This document shows positions 50,884 to 64,000 of a stretch of DNA of 64,000 bases, one piece after another. How positions within the stretch are numbered: position 1 is the stretch's first letter; each line of letters begins with the position of its first letter. The position numbers and the translations under genes were made by a program. Source of the DNA: Pseudaestuariivita rosea (GTDB taxonomy: Bacteria; Pseudomonadota; Alphaproteobacteria; Rhodobacterales; Rhodobacteraceae); assembly GCF_017592335.1 (NCBI RefSeq), contig NZ_JACNMP010000014.1, forward strand, positions 1-64,000, in the 5' to 3' direction. Below the pieces are notes generated by a model. The model did not search any database, was not told the DNA's origin, and worked only from the letters and a program-made list of their open reading frames with translations.

Positions 50884-51588
50884 CTAGCTTTCAACCTGAA
50901 GATCAGGGGCGGCGTTGGGGGATGTGTCGGCCTTTGCCATCTTGATCAACGTTCGGAACAGGGCGCGGTGGCTTTTGCTGTAGAAAATATGTTCAGGATG
51001 CCATTGGACGCCCAGGGCAAAGGGGGGCGATGTCCGCTCAACCGCCTGGATCATGCCGCCGTCATCACGGGCGGCGACGCGCAGACCCCGGCCCAAACTG
51101 TCGACCGCTTGACTGTGCAGCGCGTTCACCTTCAACACCGATTTTTCCAGGTTCTTCGAAAGCAGCGTGTCCGGTTCAATCTGGACCGTCTTGCGCGGCA
51201 AAATCGTGCGGTATTTGCGGGATTTATAAGTCGCATAGGCATCCTGATCCAACGTCCCCCCCAGCACCACATTCAACATCTGCGACCCCCTGCAGATACC
51301 AAAGGTGGGTAGGTCGCGATCGAAGGCCTCGCACAGAATGCGTTTTTCCATTTCATCGCGGGCAGGGTCAAGGCGCGCTTCGGCTAGAAGTTCGCCGCCA
51401 TAAAGCATCGGTGATATGTCGTCGCCACCGCCGATGATCACACCATCGATGCTGCCGAATTCGATCTGTTCGGCGTCCTGCCAGCGGATGGCGCGGCCCC
51501 CGGCCAGCCAGACATTCAGCGCCATCAGCGGAAATATGCGCCAGCCTGATCGTTTTGAGACCGTGACAGCAATGCGTGGGCGGGTCAT
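50884..51588 (-). CDS. Class I glutamine amidotransferase / gamma-glutamyl hydrolase-like
   Basis: A 234-residue peptidase C26 family enzyme (PuuD-like). The nucleophile Cys99 is in FGICRGSQMLNVVLGGTL, the loop with GGGDDISPMLYGG is near residues 53-65, and the His/Glu pair is in GVQWHPEHIFY. Family members hydrolyse gamma-glutamyl bonds or supply ammonia. Its start overlaps the amidoligase stop by four bases (ATGA), so the two proteins are made together. Iyer, Abhiman and Aravind's analysis of amidoligases (from memory) predicted such pairs to make or trim gamma-glutamyl-type amide products. Confidence 0.9.
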   Translation of the reverse strand: MTRPRIAVTVSKRSGWRIFPLMALNVWLAGGRAIRWQDAEQIEFGSIDGVIIGGGDDISPMLYGGELLAEARLDPARDEMEKRILCEAFDRDLPTFGICRGSQMLNVVLGGTLDQDAYATYKSRKYRTILPRKTVQIEPDTLLSKNLEKSVLKVNALHSQAVDSLGRGLRVAARDDGGMIQAVERTSPPFALGVQWHPEHIFYSKSHRALFRTLIKMAKADTSPNAAPDLQVES

Positions 51589-52520
51589 GCTGGTATCCCG
51601 GCATTTGTATCGCGCAGGATTTCGTCCACCCTATGGTGCCAGTCCGGGCGTATCGTTGTCAGGCTGCTTCGATGGGCAATCCACGCCGCTTTAAGTTCGT
51701 CTAGCAGGTTTTGATCATGCGCAATGCTTTCGATGCGCACCCACCGGTTCCACTCACCCGTGATCGACCAGTCCGGATCATCGATGCGGCAATCCGGCAT
51801 CCTGTAGTGATAGGCAGGCCGGGACGAGGTTGAGGGGCCATAGTCGAAATCCGGGCGCAGGTGGGCCAGGATCGGCAACATGTCCAGACCACGGTTGCGC
51901 GACGGCGTTTCATCCAGATAAAGCCTGGCCAAGGCATCAATATCGCTGGGTGGTTCACTGACCAACTTGTCGACAAATCGGCGTGGATAGGGGGCGGTGA
52001 AGGGTAGAATTCTGCGGGTGGTGTCCAACTCGTAAGTGGCGCGCAGATAATCTTCCAGCAGGGCAAAGGCCGTTAAAGTCGGAAGAATATCTGTGATATT
52101 GTCACCGGTGATCTGGATGTTCAGATGCACACCGAACCCAAGCAGCAAATTATTCTGCGTGCCCGTTGCCCCGGCTTCACGCAACCTGGCACAAAGGGCA
52201 TCAAGATCAGGGATCAATGCTGGTTCTGTGGGCTGGGTTACAATCTCAATCGGCACCACAGTGCGCGCAATATTGGCCACGACGCTGTCGGCATCAGGTT
52301 GAAAGCGGGTATCAAGATAAACCTTGATATCGCCCAATCTGGTATCGCGCACCATATGGACGGTTTTATCCTGCTTTTCGTCATGGCCGCCCAATGTCTG
52401 GGCCACAACATCGGCAACCTGTCGTTCGTCCAGACCGCCTAGTTCGATCTCAACGCCGACTAGACGCGGGTCTCCGTCGGCATTTTCAGGTCGGGGCAGG
52501 GACAGCAGTGGATTGGTCAT
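51585..52520 (-). CDS. Amidoligase family protein
   Basis: A 311-residue protein of the amidoligase (glutamine-synthetase-fold, PF12224-like) family. Seen: VGVEIELGGLDERQ, the fold's first glutamate motif; GFGVHLNIQITGDNI with the His; and R-rich late parts (IDDPDWSITGEWNRWVRIES). Members form amide bonds at the expense of ATP; substrates are unknown. It is eight bases downstream of the small Rho-N-like gene and overlaps the amidotransferase gene, so these three make one operon preceded by an EcfG-type promoter. Confidence 0.85.
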   Translation of the reverse strand: MTNPLLSLPRPENADGDPRLVGVEIELGGLDERQVADVVAQTLGGHDEKQDKTVHMVRDTRLGDIKVYLDTRFQPDADSVVANIARTVVPIEIVTQPTEPALIPDLDALCARLREAGATGTQNNLLLGFGVHLNIQITGDNITDILPTLTAFALLEDYLRATYELDTTRRILPFTAPYPRRFVDKLVSEPPSDIDALARLYLDETPSRNRGLDMLPILAHLRPDFDYGPSTSSRPAYHYRMPDCRIDDPDWSITGEWNRWVRIESIAHDQNLLDELKAAWIAHRSSLTTIRPDWHHRVDEILRDTNAGIPA

Positions 52521-52528
52521 GAATAAGA

Positions 52529-52792
52529 TCAGTTCGACCGCAGCGCCGAAATCAGCTCATTTTTGGTCATATCCGACCGCCCGTCGATGTCCAATTCCTG
52601 CGCGCGCTCATACAGTTCATCCTTGGTCCATTCTTCATAGGGTTGGGCCTTGCCGCCCTTTTCCGAAGGTGACATCTGATCGTTGGCCTGCGCATTTGCA
52701 ATCGCGGCCGCCTTGGATTTGCTGTAGCCCTTGTCGCGCAGTGCTTCGTAGGTGTCGTCATTTTTGATGGACGATCCGTGATCTTTTGACAT
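52529..52792 (-). CDS. Small protein with Rho-N-like domain
   Basis: An 87-residue soluble protein: DTYEALRDKGYSKSKAAAIA at the start and a C-terminal SAP/Rho-N type helix pair, WTKDELYERAQELDIDGRSD and MTKNELISALRS. Such domains bind nucleic acid. Similar proteins are common among general stress genes of alphaproteobacteria (from memory). AAAGGAG lies eight bases before the start, and an exact EcfG-type promoter lies 29 bases before the start codon. Confidence 0.88.
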   Translation of the reverse strand: MSKDHGSSIKNDDTYEALRDKGYSKSKAAAIANAQANDQMSPSEKGGKAQPYEEWTKDELYERAQELDIDGRSDMTKNELISALRSN

Positions 52793-52820
52793 CGTCTGCT
52801 CCTTTCAGTGCGATTATAGA

Positions 52821-52845
52821 AACGCATGCCAAAGCATTTTGTTCC
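52821..52845 (-). promoter_or_regulatory. EcfG-type general-stress promoter (exact)
   Basis: On the minus strand: GGAAC-N16-CGTT. It precedes the Rho-N-like/amidoligase/amidotransferase operon with a leader of about 20 bases. Confidence 0.75.
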
Positions 52846-53508: not shown

Positions 53509-54966
53509 TCACCTCCTGCGGAACCAAGTGCGTGGAAGAATAAGAACAAGAACGGCAATGAATTCCAACCGCCCAAGCCACATGCCGACGGTCAGGGCAA
53601 TCTTCACCGGATCGGGCAGATCAGAGCCGACAATCGTCGACAGCCCCACCGTAGACAGCGTCGACACCGTGTCAAACAGGGCGGGTACGGGCGGATAGTC
53701 ATAGATCAGGAAAATCGACCAGATGACGAAAACGGTGATCATATATAGCAAAACCAGCGCCATCAGTGCGACAAGTGTGTCGTAATCCACCTTGCGACCA
53801 CCTGATTTCAGGGACAGAACAGCGCTGTCCGGGCTGCGGGCGCGGGAAAAGGTAAAGCGGACGGCTTTGCCCAAAAGAATGATCCGGGTGATCTTTAGCC
53901 CGCCGCCGGTTGATCCGATATCGGCGCCCACGATCATGGCTATGATAAAGATCAGCAAAGCCGGTGCCGCAGCGGGCATCGGTCCGGTTGAATACCCCGC
54001 GGTGGTTTGCCCGCTGATCAGGTCCAGAAACCGCTGATAAAGCGCGACGGGGTCCCATCCGTTCGCCCATATGTCATAAAGTGCATAGACAGACAGCAAG
54101 ATCGCCAAGGCCCCGCCGACCCGCTGAAGCGATCCCAAATCAAGTGCTGCGCGAAACCCGTTGCGCGCCAGCAGGATGTAAAACAGCAGGGACACCGCGC
54201 CCGCCGCACACATAAAGATGACATAACCCTGCGCAACCAGCGAATAGCTGGCCAGACTGTCCGATCGCGGGGCAAACCCGCCTGTCGACACGGCGGCCAA
54301 TGTCACGACGATGGCTTCCCACACATTTGGCAACAACAGGCTGGCCCCAAGTGCGCCAATCACCGTGATCGTAACATAAACGATCAGCAATTGCCGGGCC
54401 TGTGCGCGGCTGGATGTCAGAAAATCCCGATCATCGATGCCGACACGGCCCAGTTGACGGGCGGGCAAACCGGGGTCCAGGATCAGGGCCAGCACCGCGG
54501 TTGCCATCGCCAGCCCCCCGCACCATTGCAACCATGCACGCAGGACATGGGCCGCGATAGGCCAGTCATCGGGTGCGCTGGCGACGCTTAGTCCTGTTGT
54601 GGTGATGCCCGACATGGCTTCGAACATCCCGTCGACGGGCCGCATGCCAAGCGCCATGAAGGCCGGTACGGAAAAGGCCGCGGCCAGAAAGAATAGGATG
54701 CCAAGACAGACCATCGCCTCGATCCGGCGCAGATCGGCGGGCAGAGACCTTTTGGCCACAGGCAACCACAGCAGGCCGCTTAAAATAAGGGGTGCAGCCA
54801 AAGCGATAGCCAGTTGATATTCAGCTTCGATCAGCGCGACAATCAACGGTGGCGTAAAAAGGGCCGGGAAAACCGGCATATGCTTTAACAGGGTCAGACC
54901 GACGACAGTTGGCCGCGCACGTTGTAAAAGTGCGTCTGCACCGGATGATTTTGCTGACTTTTGCAT
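53509..54966 (-). CDS. trkH: TrkH family potassium transporter
   Basis: A 485-residue membrane transporter with four repeated pore units: IEAMSGITTTGLSVAS, VTLAAVSTGGFAP, GADIGSTGGGLK and FDTVSTLSTVGLSTIVG are the four selectivity-filter segments. It brings in K+ together with TrkA. The ATG at 54966 has no ribosome site and sits eight bases from the CGTT of an EcfG-type promoter, so its mRNA may be leaderless. Confidence 0.95.
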   Translation of the reverse strand: MQKSAKSSGADALLQRARPTVVGLTLLKHMPVFPALFTPPLIVALIEAEYQLAIALAAPLILSGLLWLPVAKRSLPADLRRIEAMVCLGILFFLAAAFSVPAFMALGMRPVDGMFEAMSGITTTGLSVASAPDDWPIAAHVLRAWLQWCGGLAMATAVLALILDPGLPARQLGRVGIDDRDFLTSSRAQARQLLIVYVTITVIGALGASLLLPNVWEAIVVTLAAVSTGGFAPRSDSLASYSLVAQGYVIFMCAAGAVSLLFYILLARNGFRAALDLGSLQRVGGALAILLSVYALYDIWANGWDPVALYQRFLDLISGQTTAGYSTGPMPAAAPALLIFIIAMIVGADIGSTGGGLKITRIILLGKAVRFTFSRARSPDSAVLSLKSGGRKVDYDTLVALMALVLLYMITVFVIWSIFLIYDYPPVPALFDTVSTLSTVGLSTIVGSDLPDPVKIALTVGMWLGRLEFIAVLVLILPRTWFRRR

Positions 54967-54974
54967 GAGTGTTG

Positions 54975-54999
54975 AACGCCGATCCGGCCGCCTGGTTCC
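54975..54999 (-). promoter_or_regulatory. EcfG-type promoter of trkH (exact)
   Basis: On the minus strand: GGAAC-N16-CGTT. Eight bases separate its CGTT from the trkH ATG, predicting a transcript start at or next to the start codon. Its -35 is nine bases from the -35 of the divergent promoter. Confidence 0.75.
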
Positions 55000-55007
55000 T
55001 ATGTCAT

Positions 55008-55032
55008 GGAACAAAATATTTAGTTGTGCGTT
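55008..55032 (+). promoter_or_regulatory. EcfG-type promoter of the focA-like operon (exact)
   Basis: GGAAC (55008-55012), 16 bases, CGTT (55029-55032). It precedes the focA-like start by 40 bases, with GAAGAGGG as a ribosome site. Confidence 0.75.
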
Positions 55033-55072
55033 ATTGTCGTCGAATAACTTTACGAATGGAAGAGGGCTTATT

Positions 55073-55870
55073 ATGTCAAATGCTGAAAATGCTGACGGTC
55101 AAACATCGATTGCAGCACGCGATGTGTTTACGGTCATTCGCGAAGCTGGTGAAGAGGAACTGGCCCGCCCCTTTACCTCACTTTTCTGGTCCGGCATCGC
55201 AGCAGGCATTCTGATCAGCTTTTCCGTTTTGACCGAAGCCTATCTGCGGGCGTCATTACCCGATACCGAATGGCGTTTTGCAATTGAAAATTTTGGCTAT
55301 TCCATGGGCTTTTTGCTGGTCATTCTGGGTCGGATGCAGCTTTTCACTGAAAACACGATCACGACGGTCATTCCGGCGATCTATGAACGATCGCTGAAAT
55401 GCACCGTTCAGATGCTGAAATTATGGGGCATCGTGCTGTTCGCAAATGTGATTGGCGCCTTTGTCGCGGCGGCTTTCATGGCATTTTCCAGCGGTTTGAG
55501 CGCCGAGGTTGTAGGGATCGTCAACGACCTGTCAAAGCACGCAACAGGCTATGGGTTTAGCGAAAGTCTGGTGCGGGGCATTCCCGCGGGCATACTTATC
55601 GCGGCCATTGTCTGGATGATCCCAAGCGCGCCCAGTGCGCAGGTTCTGATCGTTATCTTGTTTACCTGGCTGATCGCGATGGGTGACTTTACCCATGTTG
55701 TCGCGGGTTCCGTGGAAATGGCGTTTCTGATCCTGACCGGTCAAATGGGCATCATCGAAGGATTTACAGTATTTTTCGTGCCGACATTTCTGGGCAATGT
55801 GATCGGGGGCACCGTGATCTTTACATTGCTGGCGTGGGCGCAGGTGAAACTGGAAGTGGAAAAGGATTGA
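55073..55870 (+). CDS. Formate/nitrite transporter family channel, YfdC-like
   Basis: A 265-residue FNT-family membrane protein with six helices. Seen: FTSLFWSGIAAGILISFSVL, a pore loop NFGYSMGFLLVILGRMQLFT, ENTITTVIPAI and later GSVEMAFLILTGQMG. The acidic N-terminal tail is soluble. The specificity cannot be told; YfdC-type members are not the formate channels. A DUF2945 protein and topoisomerase IB follow in the same operon. Confidence 0.9.
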   Translation: MSNAENADGQTSIAARDVFTVIREAGEEELARPFTSLFWSGIAAGILISFSVLTEAYLRASLPDTEWRFAIENFGYSMGFLLVILGRMQLFTENTITTVIPAIYERSLKCTVQMLKLWGIVLFANVIGAFVAAAFMAFSSGLSAEVVGIVNDLSKHATGYGFSESLVRGIPAGILIAAIVWMIPSAPSAQVLIVILFTWLIAMGDFTHVVAGSVEMAFLILTGQMGIIEGFTVFFVPTFLGNVIGGTVIFTLLAWAQVKLEVEKD

Positions 55871-55873
55871 AAA

Positions 55874-56089
55874 ATGGCCAGCTATAGAAAAGGCGATCAG
55901 GTTGAATGGGACTGGGGCGATGGCACGGCCCAAGGCACAATTGTCGAGGTGCACAAGGAAAAGGTCACCAAAACGCTGAAGGGCACCGATGTGACACGTG
56001 CCGCCAGCGAAGATGAGCCGGCCTATCTAATCAAGCAGGAAGATGGTGACAAGGTCTTGAAATCGTGCACAGAAATCCGCGCGGCCTGA
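55874..56089 (+). CDS. DUF2945 / hypervirulence-associated small protein
   Basis: A 71-residue protein of the DUF2945 (HVA1, Tudor-like) family: YRKGDQVEWDWGDGTAQGTI then VHKEKVTKTLKG and DEPAYLIKQEDGDKVLKSC. The compact beta-barrel may bind nucleic acid or protein tails. It overlaps the topoisomerase gene by 25 bases, in a different frame. Confidence 0.92.
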   Translation: MASYRKGDQVEWDWGDGTAQGTIVEVHKEKVTKTLKGTDVTRAASEDEPAYLIKQEDGDKVLKSCTEIRAA

Positions 56090-59898: not shown

Positions 59899-61236
59899 AT
59901 GACAGAACGCGCGCAACTTGTTGAAACATTCATGGAAGATGTTCGCGCCCGAAACACGGGCCAGGACGAATTCCTTCAGGCCGTTGAGGAAGTGGCCGAA
60001 GATGTTTTAACAATCGAGAAAAACAATCCCGATTATGCGCGCAACAAGGTGCTGGAACGTCTGTCCGAACCCGACCGTATCATTGGTTTTCGAGTGGTTT
60101 GGGAAGATGATGCAGGTGAATATCACATTAACCGGGGCTGGCGGGTTCAGTTTTCAAATGCCATCGGTCCCTATAAGGGGGGGATCCGGTTTCATCCCTC
60201 AGTGAACGCCTCGGTCCTGAAGTTTCTGGGGTTTGAGCAGATTTTCAAGAACGCATTGACCGGGCTGCCCCTGGGCGGTGCAAAGGGGGGTGCTGATTTT
60301 GATCCCAAAGGCCGCAGCGACCGTGAGATCATGCGGTTTTGTCAGGCTTTCATGGGCGAGTTGGGCCGCTATATCGGGCCAGATCGCGATGTGCCAGCGG
60401 GTGATATCAATGTCGGCACGCGTGAAATCGGCTATCTTTTCGGCGCATATAAAAAACTGCAGGGCGAATTTCATGGGGCTGTCACAGGCAAGGGCGAAGC
60501 TTTTGGGGGCAGCGCCATGCGGGTTGAGGCGACGGGTTATGGCCTGATCTATTTTGTCCAGGCGATGCTGAATGAAACGGGGCAAGAGATTGAGGGCAAG
60601 CGCATCGCAATCTCGGGCAAGGGCAATGTTGCGACCCATGCGGCCGAGAAAGCGGCGCAGCTAGGGGCCAAGGTGATTTCATTGTCCGATACCTCGGGCA
60701 CACTGGTGGCGGAAGACGGGCTAAGCCTGGAGCAGATCGACTGGGTGCGTCAGCAAAAGCGTCAGGGCCTTGATATCAGCGCCCCGCCGGGGGGTGCGGT
60801 TTTTGAACCTGATACGCTGCCCTGGGCGCTTGAGGCCGATATCGCTTTGCCCTGCGCCACCCAGAACGAGATGGACGAAAAATCCGCCAAGGATCTGATC
60901 GATAGCGGCGTTCGTCTGATTGCCGAAGGGGCCAACATGCCTTTGACCGCAGATGCCGTACATGCCGTGCGCGAGGGGGGTGTCAGTTACGCGCCGGGCA
61001 AGGCATCCAATGCGGGGGGCGTTGCGATTTCGGGCCTTGAGATGAGCCAGAACGCCCATCGCCGGTCGATGACAGCCGATCAGGTGGATCAGGAACTGAA
61101 GAAAATCATGTGCATGATCCATGAACGCACTATTCGCGAAGGCAAGACCGGTAATGGCATCGACTATCGGTGCGGTGCCAATATCGCGGGGTATCGCAAG
61201 GTCGCCGATGCCTTGGTCGCCTATGGTACGATGTGA
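59899..61236 (+). CDS. gdhA: NADP-type glutamate dehydrogenase
   Basis: A 445-residue hexameric glutamate dehydrogenase of the long bacterial GdhA type. The substrate Lys lies in PYKGGIRFHPSV and PLGGAKGGADFDPKGRSD, and the Rossmann motif is ISGKGNVATHAAEKA. It forms glutamate from ammonia and 2-oxoglutarate. GGAGAG precedes the start. No direct link to the stress genes on either side is visible. Confidence 0.96.
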   Translation: MTERAQLVETFMEDVRARNTGQDEFLQAVEEVAEDVLTIEKNNPDYARNKVLERLSEPDRIIGFRVVWEDDAGEYHINRGWRVQFSNAIGPYKGGIRFHPSVNASVLKFLGFEQIFKNALTGLPLGGAKGGADFDPKGRSDREIMRFCQAFMGELGRYIGPDRDVPAGDINVGTREIGYLFGAYKKLQGEFHGAVTGKGEAFGGSAMRVEATGYGLIYFVQAMLNETGQEIEGKRIAISGKGNVATHAAEKAAQLGAKVISLSDTSGTLVAEDGLSLEQIDWVRQQKRQGLDISAPPGGAVFEPDTLPWALEADIALPCATQNEMDEKSAKDLIDSGVRLIAEGANMPLTADAVHAVREGGVSYAPGKASNAGGVAISGLEMSQNAHRRSMTADQVDQELKKIMCMIHERTIREGKTGNGIDYRCGANIAGYRKVADALVAYGTM

Positions 61237-61243
61237 GGATCAG

Positions 61244-62887
61244 ATGACAAAAACAGGGGCAGAACTGTTTGCCGAATGCCTTCAGGCCGCAGGGATCGAT
61301 ACGATTTACGGCGTGCCGGGCGAAGAAAACAATGCACTGATGTTGGCGCTGGAAAAGACGGATATAGATTTTGTGCTGTGTCGCCATGAACAGGCCGCGG
61401 CCTTTATGGCATCGGTCCATGGGCGGCTGACGGGGCGCCCTGCCGGGTGTCTGGCGACCCTGGGTCCAGGGGCCACCAACCTTATCACCGGTGTTGCGGA
61501 TGCGATGCAGGATTATGCGTCGTTGATTGCGATCACGGGGCAGGGTGCGCGGGATCGGATGGGGCGTGAAAGTCATCAGATGATTGATCTTGAGGCTTTG
61601 TTTCGCCCCGTAACCAAACATTCGCAAACGGTTCAGACGGCGGCGGCCATTCCGGGGGCGATTGCGCGGGCGGTACAACTGTCACGGGCACCACGTCCGG
61701 GCGCAGTGCATATCTGCCTGCCCGAGGATGTCGCGGATGACAAGATAGAGGCGGGGCCGTTGGACGTCGCACTTGATCCACCGAAGACCTTGGCCCACCC
61801 GCCGCTGATTGAACAGGCCTTGCAGCTTTTGAAAGATGCCAAGGCGCCGCTGATCCTGGCCGGTAACGGTGTGATCCGCGCCGCGGCATCCGACGATCTG
61901 CGCAAACTGGCCGAGGCTACACATATTCCCATCGTCAGCAGCTTCATGGCCAAGGGAATATTGCCCGCAGATAATCAGCTTAATCTTTATACGGTCGGCC
62001 AGCCCTTTGATGACAAGATAGACGCTGCATTCAAGCAAACCGATCTGATCCTAAGCGTTGGTTTTGATGCGATTGAGTATCCGCCCTCAAAACTGATCAA
62101 GAATGATCACACGCAGGTTGTCACTATTAGTGATGCGGCCTCTCCGGTGGATGCGGGTTGGCCTGTCGCGGTGGATATTGTTGGCGATATAGCGGCGACT
62201 GTACGGGCGATGACCCAGGCGATGGGCGGGCAAACCTGGGCGTCAGATGGCTTTATTCAGTTGCATCAGACTTTGCTGTCGGAACTGACCACTGATCGCA
62301 CGGATCAGGACAAAGGCTTGGTACCGCCGCCGGACATCCTGCACATTATCGAAGATGATCTAAAGCCCGATGATATCGTCTTGTCTGGTGTGGGTGCCCA
62401 CAAACTGTGGATCGCGCGGCATCTGATGCCCAAGGCCCCCGGGCAGGTCATCATAGCCAACGGTTTGGCCGGTATGGGGATGGCTTTGCCCGGTGCAATT
62501 GCGGCCGCGCGCCTTTATCCCGGTCGCCGCATTCTGGCGATTTGTGGTGACGGTGACGTTCTGATGAATGTGCAGGACATGGAAACGGCGGCCCGGCTGC
62601 GGCTGGATCTGACTGTGATGGTCTGGGTCGACGGCGGCTATGGTCTGATTGAATGGAAGCAAGAGGATGAGGCCGATCGCCATACCGAACTGTCATTTGA
62701 CAATCCCGACTGGTCGCATCTGGCCCGTGCCTTTGGGTGGCGGCATGATCATTTTGATGGCAAGTCCGCCCTGCGTGATGGATTTGCAGGTGTTTTCCGG
62801 GGCACCGGTCCGCGACTGATCACCGTGCCCGTTGATTATTCCGAAAATCAGGTCCTTAGCGGATCAGACGCACAAGCTGCGGAGTAA
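61244..62887 (+). CDS. Acetolactate synthase, catalytic subunit-like
   Basis: A 547-residue ThDP-dependent enzyme of the acetohydroxyacid synthase group. Catalytic Glu49 is in CRHEQAAAFMA, followed by LATLGPGATNLITGVADAMQ; the ThDP/Mg segment is ICGDGDVLMNVQDMET. No regulatory small-subunit gene is adjacent, so it resembles the catabolic AlsS-like type, but another ThDP reaction is possible. The start at 61244 is seven bases after gdhA. Confidence 0.88.
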   Translation: MTKTGAELFAECLQAAGIDTIYGVPGEENNALMLALEKTDIDFVLCRHEQAAAFMASVHGRLTGRPAGCLATLGPGATNLITGVADAMQDYASLIAITGQGARDRMGRESHQMIDLEALFRPVTKHSQTVQTAAAIPGAIARAVQLSRAPRPGAVHICLPEDVADDKIEAGPLDVALDPPKTLAHPPLIEQALQLLKDAKAPLILAGNGVIRAAASDDLRKLAEATHIPIVSSFMAKGILPADNQLNLYTVGQPFDDKIDAAFKQTDLILSVGFDAIEYPPSKLIKNDHTQVVTISDAASPVDAGWPVAVDIVGDIAATVRAMTQAMGGQTWASDGFIQLHQTLLSELTTDRTDQDKGLVPPPDILHIIEDDLKPDDIVLSGVGAHKLWIARHLMPKAPGQVIIANGLAGMGMALPGAIAAARLYPGRRILAICGDGDVLMNVQDMETAARLRLDLTVMVWVDGGYGLIEWKQEDEADRHTELSFDNPDWSHLARAFGWRHDHFDGKSALRDGFAGVFRGTGPRLITVPVDYSENQVLSGSDAQAAE

Positions 62888-62888
62888 T

Positions 62889-62913
62889 GGAACCTTTCCG
62901 GCGCGTCTTCGTT
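62889..62913 (+). promoter_or_regulatory. EcfG-type promoter of dps (exact)
   Basis: GGAAC (62889-62893), 16 bases, CGTT (62910-62913), located just past the end of the acetolactate synthase gene. AAGGAGG before the dps start gives the leader a strong ribosome site. Confidence 0.75.
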
Positions 62914-62946
62914 GATGCCATGAACGTAAACCAAGGAGGTTTTATT

Positions 62947-63441
62947 ATGGCAGACGCACTGAAAGTTGTACCTAGGGAAGACGACGTGAAAACGGGTGTT
63001 CGGGACACCCGGGGCATTGCCGAAGGTCTGGCTGACGTGCTGGCCGATACATATCGGCTGATCTTCAAGACGCATGCCTATCACTGGAACGTGGAAGGGC
63101 CGCTGTTTTATTCCATCCACAACCTGACCGAAGAGCAATATGAAAATATGTTTGAAGCTGCCGATGAACTGGCCGAACGTATTCGTGCCCTGGGTCATCT
63201 GGCGCCGATGGCGATGGCTGATATCATGAAGCGGTCGCAGATTGATGATAAAGATGGCGCCATTTCTGCGGGTGAAATGGTCGAAGATCTGGCAGCAGAT
63301 CATGAACGTTTGGCGCACAGGTTGCATGCATTGATCGAATTGGTTGAGGGTCGGAAAGATCCGGTAACCGAAGATCTTGCAACCGAGCGCAGCGCATTTC
63401 ACGAACAGGCTGCATGGATGTTACGTGCGATTGCGAAGTAA
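62947..63441 (+). CDS. dps: Dps-type ferritin-like DNA protection protein
   Basis: A 164-residue Dps, a dodecameric ferroxidase that protects DNA and stores iron. Ferroxidase residues: KTHAYHWNVEGPLFYSIH, MFEAADELAERIRALG and HLAPMAMADI. The tail is helical (AFHEQAAWMLRAIAK). The start at 62947 with AAGGAGG is clear. An exact EcfG-type promoter sits just upstream, in line with general-stress control. Confidence 0.95.
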   Translation: MADALKVVPREDDVKTGVRDTRGIAEGLADVLADTYRLIFKTHAYHWNVEGPLFYSIHNLTEEQYENMFEAADELAERIRALGHLAPMAMADIMKRSQIDDKDGAISAGEMVEDLAADHERLAHRLHALIELVEGRKDPVTEDLATERSAFHEQAAWMLRAIAK

Positions 63442-63445
63442 AGGT

Positions 63446-63478
63446 AAAAAATATCCCGGCCTTGGCCGGGATATTTTT
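63446..63478. terminator. Bidirectional terminator between dps and phyR
   Basis: ATATCCCGGCC (63451-63461), two-base loop TT, GGCCGGGATAT (63464-63474), with A run before and TTTTT after. Confidence 0.88.
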
Positions 63479-63482
63479 CGCT

Positions 63483-64000
63483 TTAGACGGTCAACGTTTC
63501 AGTCGATGCAAAGAACAAGGCCTGGCTGACCGCTGATCGAACCTGTTCTTCATTATAGGGTTTCGAGATCAGAAAAGCCGGTTCCGGCCGTTCGCCGGTC
63601 AACAGACGTTCTGGAAAAGCAGTAATAAAGATCACAGGCCTCTGCCCAAGATCGGTAAGCAGTTCATTGACCGCATCAATACCAGACGAATTATCAGCAA
63701 GTTGAATATCGGCAAGGATCAGATCGGGCACCTCACTATGGCCCAGCTTGACGGCAGCCTTATGGGTCTTGGCAATCCCTGTTACCTTATGGCCCATTTC
63801 GCTGACGATGCCTTCCAGATCCATCGAAATGATCGCTTCATCCTCGATAATCATGACTTTGCCACTGTGTGCATCAGCCATTTCGCGGCGTGCTATTTCG
63901 ACCAGCTCTTTTGCTTCATCGCGCGGAATATCCATGACATTGGCGACACTGTCCAGGGGCAACGATTCAACCGTATGCAACAGCAAAGCTTCGCGGCTGT
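63483..64000 (-). CDS. phyR: PhyR general stress response regulator, 5' part beyond the window
   Basis: The C-terminal ~170 residues of PhyR, the anti-anti-sigma regulator of the alphaproteobacterial general stress response. The end of the sigma-like domain is LLLHTVESLPLDSVANVMDI then PRDEAKELVEIARREM; the receiver follows with VMIIEDEAIISMDLEGIVSE, the phospho-Asp in LILADIQLADNSSGID and the family's VIFITAFPERLLTGERPEP, with Lys in ISKPYNEEQV. The true start lies right of position 64000. When phosphorylated, PhyR takes NepR from EcfG, freeing it for GGAAC-CGTT promoters such as those found here. NepR/EcfG genes are probably just outside. Confidence 0.96.
   Translation of the reverse strand, partial: SREALLLHTVESLPLDSVANVMDIPRDEAKELVEIARREMADAHSGKVMIIEDEAIISMDLEGIVSEMGHKVTGIAKTHKAAVKLGHSEVPDLILADIQLADNSSGIDAVNELLTDLGQRPVIFITAFPERLLTGERPEPAFLISKPYNEEQVRSAVSQALFFASTETLTV

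Follow-up and report, generated by a model that had tools for sequence, protein, structure and literature searches.

The window analysed here comprises positions 1 to 64,000 of contig NZ_JACNMP010000014.1 from Pseudaestuariivita rosea (assembly GCF_017592335.1), and the subject of this work is a three-gene operon on its reverse strand together with the EcfG-type promoter site in front of it. The operon encodes a small protein with DUF7218 and Rho_N domains, an amidoligase, and a protein with the fold of class I glutamine amidotransferases (GATases). The amidoligase gene starts 8 bases past the stop codon of the DUF7218/Rho_N gene and shares a 4-base overlap with the GATase-fold gene. The first-pass annotation of this DNA had described the arrangement as an operon under an exact EcfG-type site, and both the coordinates and the Pfam matches confirm it (Table 1). 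The site lies 28 bases ahead of the first ATG of the operon, within the 59 intergenic bases that separate this ATG from the end of trkA (52852). The DUF7218/Rho_N gene has a clear ribosome-binding sequence (AAAGGAG) ahead of its ATG. The amidoligase and GATase-fold genes in the window are without a clear ribosome-binding sequence, which would fit translational coupling.

Table 1. Coordinates of the operon, its promoter site and related features in the window
Feature	Position	Strand	Basis or detail
EcfG-type site GGAAC-N16-CGTT, exact	52845-52821	-	-35 element 52841-52845, -10 element 52821-52824
DUF7218 + Rho_N gene, first gene (87 amino acids)	52529-52792	-	Pfam DUF7218 E 1e-22, Rho_N E 4e-6
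Amidoligase gene (311 amino acids, PF12224 Amidoligase_2)	51585-52520	-	Pfam E 1e-40
Class I GATase-fold gene (234 amino acids)	50884-51588	-	PF07722 Peptidase_C26 E 1e-44, PF00117 E 5e-16
phyR, coding for the anti-sigma factor antagonist; truncated at the window end	63483-63998	-	Pfam PhyR_sigma2 E 7e-26
Exact EcfG site at the trkH start (gene 53509-54969)	54975-54999	-	pattern match
Exact EcfG site upstream of a formate/nitrite-family transporter gene, 40 bases ahead of its likely ATG (55073)	55008-55032	+	pattern match
Exact EcfG site upstream of a Dps-like ferritin-family gene, 33 bases ahead of its likely ATG (62947)	62889-62913	+	pattern match
Fifth exact EcfG site, within an RNase H gene	40954		probably a chance match

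The amidoligase and the GATase-fold protein

The amidoligase scored 140.5 bits against PF12224, above the cut-off of 22, and belongs to that family. Its structure model (predicted local distance difference test, pLDDT, 94) was aligned by VIA-align with glutamine synthetases (Z 13.1, root-mean-square deviation 3.9 over 212 residues). The matches include GmaS (12.2) and 1-naphthylamine glutamine synthetase (12.5), which, as their names suggest, act on amines other than ammonia. The best Foldseek match was YbdK (E 2e-3), followed by glutamine synthetases, and nothing in the PDB matched the amidoligase profile by sequence up to E 10. Residues invariant in 72 amidoligases include E23, E25, D69, E91, N133, R168, R207, R233, H237 and R239. 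E23/E25 and the motifs G-x-G-x-H-x-N and H-x-R-M-P-D may be counterparts of glutamine-synthetase metal and substrate residues. The amidoligase structure also matches phage amidoligases (best E 5e-8). A phage origin was rejected because the phage pairs in the papers considered carry another GATase class and a tblastn search with the window amidoligase matched no phage record; the structural match reflects a shared fold only.

In the case of the GATase-fold protein, the profile comparison ranks Lin1909, SpuA and PuuD first (E 6e-49 to 7e-36), with GMP synthase well behind at 5e-12, and the same three proteins lead the fold comparison of its structure model (pLDDT 91). Residues C99, H197 and E199, as well as N155, H158 and Q160, are invariant in 70/70 aligned sequences. 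Cys, His and Glu form the catalytic triad of class I GATases, and the cysteine to which attention had been drawn earlier, C99, is indeed found within the sequence GICRG. The N155-H158-Q160 motif is common to this protein, SpuA and Lin1909. By profile, fold and Cys-His-Glu triad the protein is of the Peptidase_C26/PuuD type, so that the original label, glutamine amidotransferase, gives way to a closest relationship in both sequence and fold with the PuuD/SpuA gamma-glutamyl hydrolases. A score of 42.5 bits (cut-off 250) was obtained with the NCBI model for gamma-glutamyl-CDP-amidate hydrolase, an enzyme with a role in Campylobacter that, going by its name, takes glutamate off an amide; this is a weak match, and GMP synthase models gave a similar 49-50 bits. 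The genome holds a second, stronger PF07722 protein elsewhere (C21).

EcfG sites and regulator genes in the Rhodobacteraceae

The genome encodes the complete set of regulators that an EcfG regulon requires: PhyR, NepR and an extracytoplasmic-function (ECF) sigma factor. Their genes begin 11 kb from the operon, with NepR (C5:64432, E 2e-11) and then an ECF-type sigma gene (Sigma70_r2/r4, Pfam) just beyond the window end, and an exact EcfG site lies ahead of NepR (C5:64327). Within the window the exact pattern occurs 5 times against 0.58 expected, a count reached in 0/100 shuffles. A second NepR is encoded on contig 24 (G000:C24:33263-33355, locus L002) with a PhyR-like gene, 65% identical, and two regulator sets may therefore act in this organism.

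Conservation was assessed in 295 genomes of the window's family, the Rhodobacteraceae. PF12224 was found in 50 and NepR in 139 of these; 44 genomes carry both, 6 the amidoligase alone, 95 NepR alone and 150 neither, which places NepR in 44/50 amidoligase-carrying genomes versus 95/245 of those free of the amidoligase. The loci compared came from 49 family genomes (all but the window's own) plus 7 loci from named genomes. Of these 56 loci 55 were usable, L087 being dropped for want of a BLAST match to the window amidoligase; the window itself stands outside the 55. The GATase gene adjoins the amidoligase in 51/55 loci (44/48 in the family sample and 7/7 in the named genomes). No GATase gene adjoins it in L045, L069 and L077, and L088 ends at a contig edge, where the GATase position is not visible.

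A site of the form GGAAC-N16/17-[CG]GTT was present at most 250 bases upstream of the amidoligase in 27/55 loci, compared to 0/55 for each of three control patterns and 5/55 for the opposite strand, where some divergent sites may be real. The spacer was 16 bases in 17 loci and 17 bases in 10; of the remaining lengths tried, the two extremes, 12 and 22, were each seen in one locus and the others in none. For background, the pattern occurred in 2.3% of all 250-base windows of these loci and in 3.9% of the regions before other long open reading frames (ORFs). When at least 8 of the 9 GGAAC/CGTT positions had to match, sites were found in 31/42 NepR-positive and 0/6 NepR-negative loci, as compared to 0/42 in reversed sequences and 7/42 on the other strand. 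Exact sites gave 21/42 and 0/6, with 0/42 and 3/42 in the same two controls. One of the six NepR-negative genomes, G181, is only 86% complete. On inspection, loci without an exact site show GCAAC with CGTT, or GGAAC with TGTT, CATT or AGTT. Variants reported for EcfG promoters in Sphingopyxis are GCAAC, TGTT, CATT and GGTT (PMC7083833).

phyR or ecfG lies within the same fetched locus in 28/55 cases, and either an EcfG site or the regulator core is present in 39/55. Among the NepR-positive loci with no regulator core nearby, 10/20 keep their own EcfG site, so the promoter persists where the regulators are apart. In the nearest relative, a genome of the same genus (G221, locus L061), an exact site begins 66 bases ahead of the BLAST start, and the regulators are found 4 to 5 kb upstream. 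L175, a locus of a family genome drawn from the phylum sample, has an EcfG site, ecfG and a DUF7218 gene. When ORFs at 78 anchored amidoligase loci were clustered, the GATase was found at 72, EcfG at 27, and a histidine kinase and PhyR at 25 each; the kinase at L003 is of the HWE/HisKA_2 type by Pfam. A conserved third gene was sought and rejected: the smaller clusters that were scanned are ordinary genes (RlmN, asparaginase II and an ABC ATPase among 9 representatives, 2 of them without a family), and the large unlabelled clusters that cover the pair on the opposite strand resemble shadow frames.

The site is thus present in most NepR-positive relatives and absent from the six NepR-negative ones, as expected of a regulon member. 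The stress control proposed in the first-pass annotation is well supported for this family by the conserved site, the linkage to phyR/nepR/ecfG and the co-occurrence with NepR; it is specific to a lineage and does not extend to the pair wherever the pair occurs. On this comparative evidence, the window operon is very probably under EcfG control.

Dinoroseobacter shibae provides a named organism in which the pair stands beside an exact EcfG site. The pair (DSHI_RS19780, RS19775) is located on the 153-kb replicon pDSHI02, with the amidoligase starting 8 bases past the site; records H1-H3 and L074 of this species have the same length, very likely represent one plasmid and count once. EcfG sites also precede genes for a formate/nitrite transporter, YqaE/Pmp3, a PRC-barrel protein, TrkG and Dps on this replicon. 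It holds a response regulator (in the phyR position), NepR, a sigma factor and a kinase, which adjoin ggpS, a Dps-type gene, an acetolactate-synthase gene and gdhA. Dshi_3834-3836, described as a kinase, a sigma factor and a hypothetical gene, were reported to be up in light-dark starvation versus dark as part of the stress response (PMC4373377), and by annotation and gene order they would correspond to the kinase, ecfG and nepR genes; the main text of that paper makes no mention of the amidoligase. In Rhodobacter sphaeroides, PhyR is reported to matter for membrane stress and not for stress in general (PMC5830050), so the label "general stress" may be too broad. The same 2018 paper states that a stress role of PhyR had not previously been analysed in any member of the Rhodobacterales. 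Disruptions of phyR and an EcfG-like gene in R. capsulatus are described as tested for gene transfer agent only (PMC6473078, PMC3999984).

The DUF7218/Rho_N gene is single-copy in the window genome and was found in 52/295 family genomes, with NepR in 51/52 carriers (p 2e-18). The sole carrier without NepR is the 86%-complete G181, which has the window's gene order and may merely lack the regulator contig. In 29 of the 51 other carriers the locus was tested, and an EcfG site was present within 250 bases of the gene in 22/29 (reversed sequences, 0/29). Among NepR-positive genomes the gene is also associated with the amidoligase: 26 carry both the amidoligase and DUF7218, 18 the amidoligase only, 25 DUF7218 only and 70 neither (p 3e-4). 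A fixed partnership with the pair was considered and rejected: among the loci examined, the window and L042 are the only ones in which the gene immediately precedes the amidoligase, and elsewhere it is divergent, apart or unseen. We regard the gene as a strong marker of the stress regulon in its own right, not as an obligatory partner of the pair.

Several neighbouring features of the window deserve mention. In the region 53509-55870, trkH-trkA is divergent from the formate/nitrite-family transporter gene, with exact EcfG sites back to back. Genes for glutamate dehydrogenase, an acetolactate-synthase-like thiamine-diphosphate enzyme and a Dps-like protein stand in a row with phyR at 59899-63998, and this block recurs in L061, L083 and D. 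shibae pDSHI02. A small Hva1_TUDOR protein is encoded at 55874-56089, adjoining a bacterial topoisomerase IB gene, and a Tudor homologue occurs near the amidoligase pair in L078 and L083.

The pair outside the family

PF12224 was found in 26/385 genomes of the class, and the GATase gene follows the amidoligase in 21/24 loci from outside the family. L135 and L136 have an amidoligase with no adjoining GATase. In the phylum sample PF12224 was present in 24/398 genomes, and the pair in 15 of the 17 loci fetched, among which only the same-family locus has an EcfG site; weak matches in G818 and G875 were left out of the locus set. No annotated hydrolase stands beside the amidoligase on plasmids H8 and H7 (Microvirga and Azospirillum) in the PLSDB table. 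No Pfam family was found in more than 3 of the outside-family neighbours (89/115 ORFs scanned, taken by a simple picker and many of them possibly spurious), and 20 further single frames gave nothing consistent. The amidoligase/GATase pair is old and widespread.

An amidoligase tree of 72 rows separates 47 family and named rows, among them all rows of the tree that have a site or core, from the 22 outside rows and three family rows (L043, L045 and L081); the tree is of a quick kind and its dividing branch is weakly supported (71). L005, L006, L008, L080, L086, L088, L087, L136 and L137 are not among the rows. Parsimony requires 11 changes for the EcfG-site label, so that presence and absence of the site do not go back to one event.

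L043, L045 and L081 have neither an EcfG site nor the core, and the grouping of their amidoligases with the outside rows points to horizontal transfer. In three loci of the phylum from outside the class (L165, L166 and L168), a second GATase-like match follows the pair, assigned by Pfam to class I in the case of L165. L165 also has a mechanosensitive channel gene divergently upstream of the pair, and frames of like size and place occur in L166-L168 and L173.

Possible function and related systems

On relatedness alone, a gamma-glutamyl ligase acting with a hydrolase is favoured over glutamine-dependent amidation. Under stress, PhyR would free EcfG from NepR, and EcfG would transcribe the DUF7218/Rho_N, amidoligase and hydrolase genes as a single message. 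The amidoligase, an ATP-dependent ligase of glutamine-synthetase fold, would couple an amine (a polyamine, an amino acid or a similar compound) with a carboxylate, for which the gamma-carboxyl of glutamate is the likeliest candidate. The PuuD/SpuA-like enzyme would then cleave the gamma-glutamyl amide again or trim the product, so that the pair would resemble PuuA/PuuD minus the intervening oxidation steps. If EcfG control is granted, this chemistry has about even odds. The joint reading, a general-stress operon that makes and removes a gamma-glutamyl (or similar) amide, is given a probability of roughly 0.45.

A number of observations weigh against this reading. With respect to control, the genomes are related by descent, so that the Fisher p of 6e-11 for amidoligase and NepR overstates their association; 11/42 NepR-positive loci are without a site of 8 of 9 matches; and the exact pattern is not enriched genome-wide, with 31 occurrences versus 66 for a backward control. 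The motif alone is therefore weak proof, and the case for EcfG rests on the comparative evidence. An exact EcfG site was seen in 0/22 loci from outside the family, and 4/22 match at 8 of 9 positions (L136 and L137 were left out of this upstream test). With the looser [CG]GTT ending, GGTT sites appear at L135 (-153) and L117 (-261 from the profile start), which were scored as 8 of 9 at most. Stress control is therefore not a property of the pair as such and looks like a feature of this family's lineage. Homologous pairs in unrelated contexts without a stress signal would, according to the first-pass annotation, speak against its proposal; this is partly the case, for outside the family pairs occur without an exact EcfG site and without recurrent neighbours among those inspected. 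With respect to chemistry, Foldseek alone gave no amidoligase match at E 0.001 or better, and the glutamine-synthetase fold rests on the second aligner, VIA-align. The GATase-fold protein scored 89.1 bits against the PuuD model NCBIfam NF008471 (cut-off 266) and hence is not the E. coli PuuD enzyme. No polyamine-pathway oxidase or dehydrogenase recurs among the neighbours of the pair that were inspected, genes elsewhere in the genome not having been searched. Fold similarity does not give the substrate, and a protein with a class I GATase fold might instead act as an ammonia donor.

If it hydrolyses glutamine and hands the ammonia to the amidoligase, the operon would carry out a stress-controlled, glutamine-dependent amidation in which the amidoligase amidates a carboxylate on a metabolite, a peptide or a wall component. 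Glutamine-synthetase-fold enzymes can use ammonia, the Cys-His-Glu triad is complete, and the 4-base overlap together with the pairing in most loci suggests a complex. This is the reading of the first-pass annotation, and such a pair would work like MurT/GatD (PMC5871853, PMC3267633). However, the nearest relatives in sequence and fold are stand-alone gamma-glutamyl hydrolases and not ammonia donors, and amidoligases with no adjoining GATase exist both within the family and outside it; we consider glutamine-dependent amidation unlikely. It is highly improbable that the operon is outside EcfG control, with the site a chance match and the pair near stress genes by neighbourhood only. The lack of genome-wide enrichment and of exact sites outside the family would agree with chance, but not the conservation against several controls, the strict spacing, the absence of sites from the six NepR-negative genomes and the own sites of half the NepR-positive loci that have no regulators in the same locus.

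A more specific form of the ligase/hydrolase reading, with which it can hold jointly, is that the pair serves, in salt stress, the synthesis or turnover of an amide-type osmolyte or of a glutamyl store, together with potassium uptake (Trk) and glutamate dehydrogenase, whose genes share its EcfG neighbourhood. It draws on the EcfG sites that trkH, the transporter gene and the Dps-like gene have in the window, and on the glutamate dehydrogenase, Dps-like and acetolactate-synthase-like genes by phyR in both the window and D. shibae, where ggpS is present too. The 153-kb D. shibae replicon that holds the pair and regulators is, moreover, reported to be essential at least under salt shock (PMC9426580, citing Kleist 2017). 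This evidence comes from the neighbourhood only, and the salt-shock role could stem from ggpS or other genes, which leaves the osmolyte proposal quite doubtful. Stated more broadly, and still as a tentative suggestion, Rhodobacterales may have brought an amide-forming ligase together with a gamma-glutamyl hydrolase under the EcfG response, so as to form and later free an undescribed glutamyl-amide stress metabolite (an osmolyte or amine store), in concert with potassium uptake linked to EcfG, with glutamate dehydrogenase and with a Dps-like protein; DUF7218/Rho_N would be a nucleic-acid-binding member of the regulon.

In the open-licence literature, supplements aside, no paper was found that joins an amidoligase with "general stress response" or EcfG with an amidotransferase. 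Nothing turned up there on an EcfG regulon and general stress response in Rhodobacteraceae, nor a function assigned to a bacterial amidoligase/GATase pair. The only papers that came up for amidoligases with a sigma factor and stress in Alphaproteobacteria are a jumbo-phage overview and a metagenome study, and the only one for PuuD with the general stress response is a Clostridioides promoter study. Such pairs are widespread in Proteobacteria, and linking one lineage of them to a defined stress sigma factor indicates under which condition a product can be sought, with D. shibae as a named organism for it. The probable EcfG control of the pair is a lead on its purpose, and the finding adds likely members to the little-studied stress regulon of the Rhodobacterales.

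Pairs of Amidoligase_2 and GATase proteins were reportedly predicted by Iyer et al. in 2009, with a function by prediction only. By comparison, the window has the same amidoligase family beside a GATase-fold gene and differs in being under probable EcfG control in one family. Phage modules likewise combine Amidoligase_2 with a GATase gene (OM43 phages, PMC10580990; LUZ24-like UFV-P2, PMC3890496); as described there, the phage GATase is of PF13522 (GATase_6, class II), whereas the window partner is of class I (PF07722/PF00117). The EcfG regulons of Sphingopyxis (PMC7083833) and Sphingomonas (PMC6599016) share the promoter consensus and the regulators found here; the words "amidotransferase" and "glutamyl" are absent from the main text of both papers, setting aside the supplements, where gene lists would be. 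The closest parallel in chemistry is with the gamma-glutamyl polyamine enzymes PuuA/PuuD and SpuA, reviewed in PMC9397018. These likewise pair a glutamine-synthetase-like ligase with a PF07722-type hydrolase, and the window hydrolase shares their triad and, with SpuA, the N-x-x-H-x-Q motif. In contrast to PuuA/PuuD, the window ligase comes from the Amidoligase_2 family, and the genes for oxidation and dehydrogenation steps are not part of the operon.

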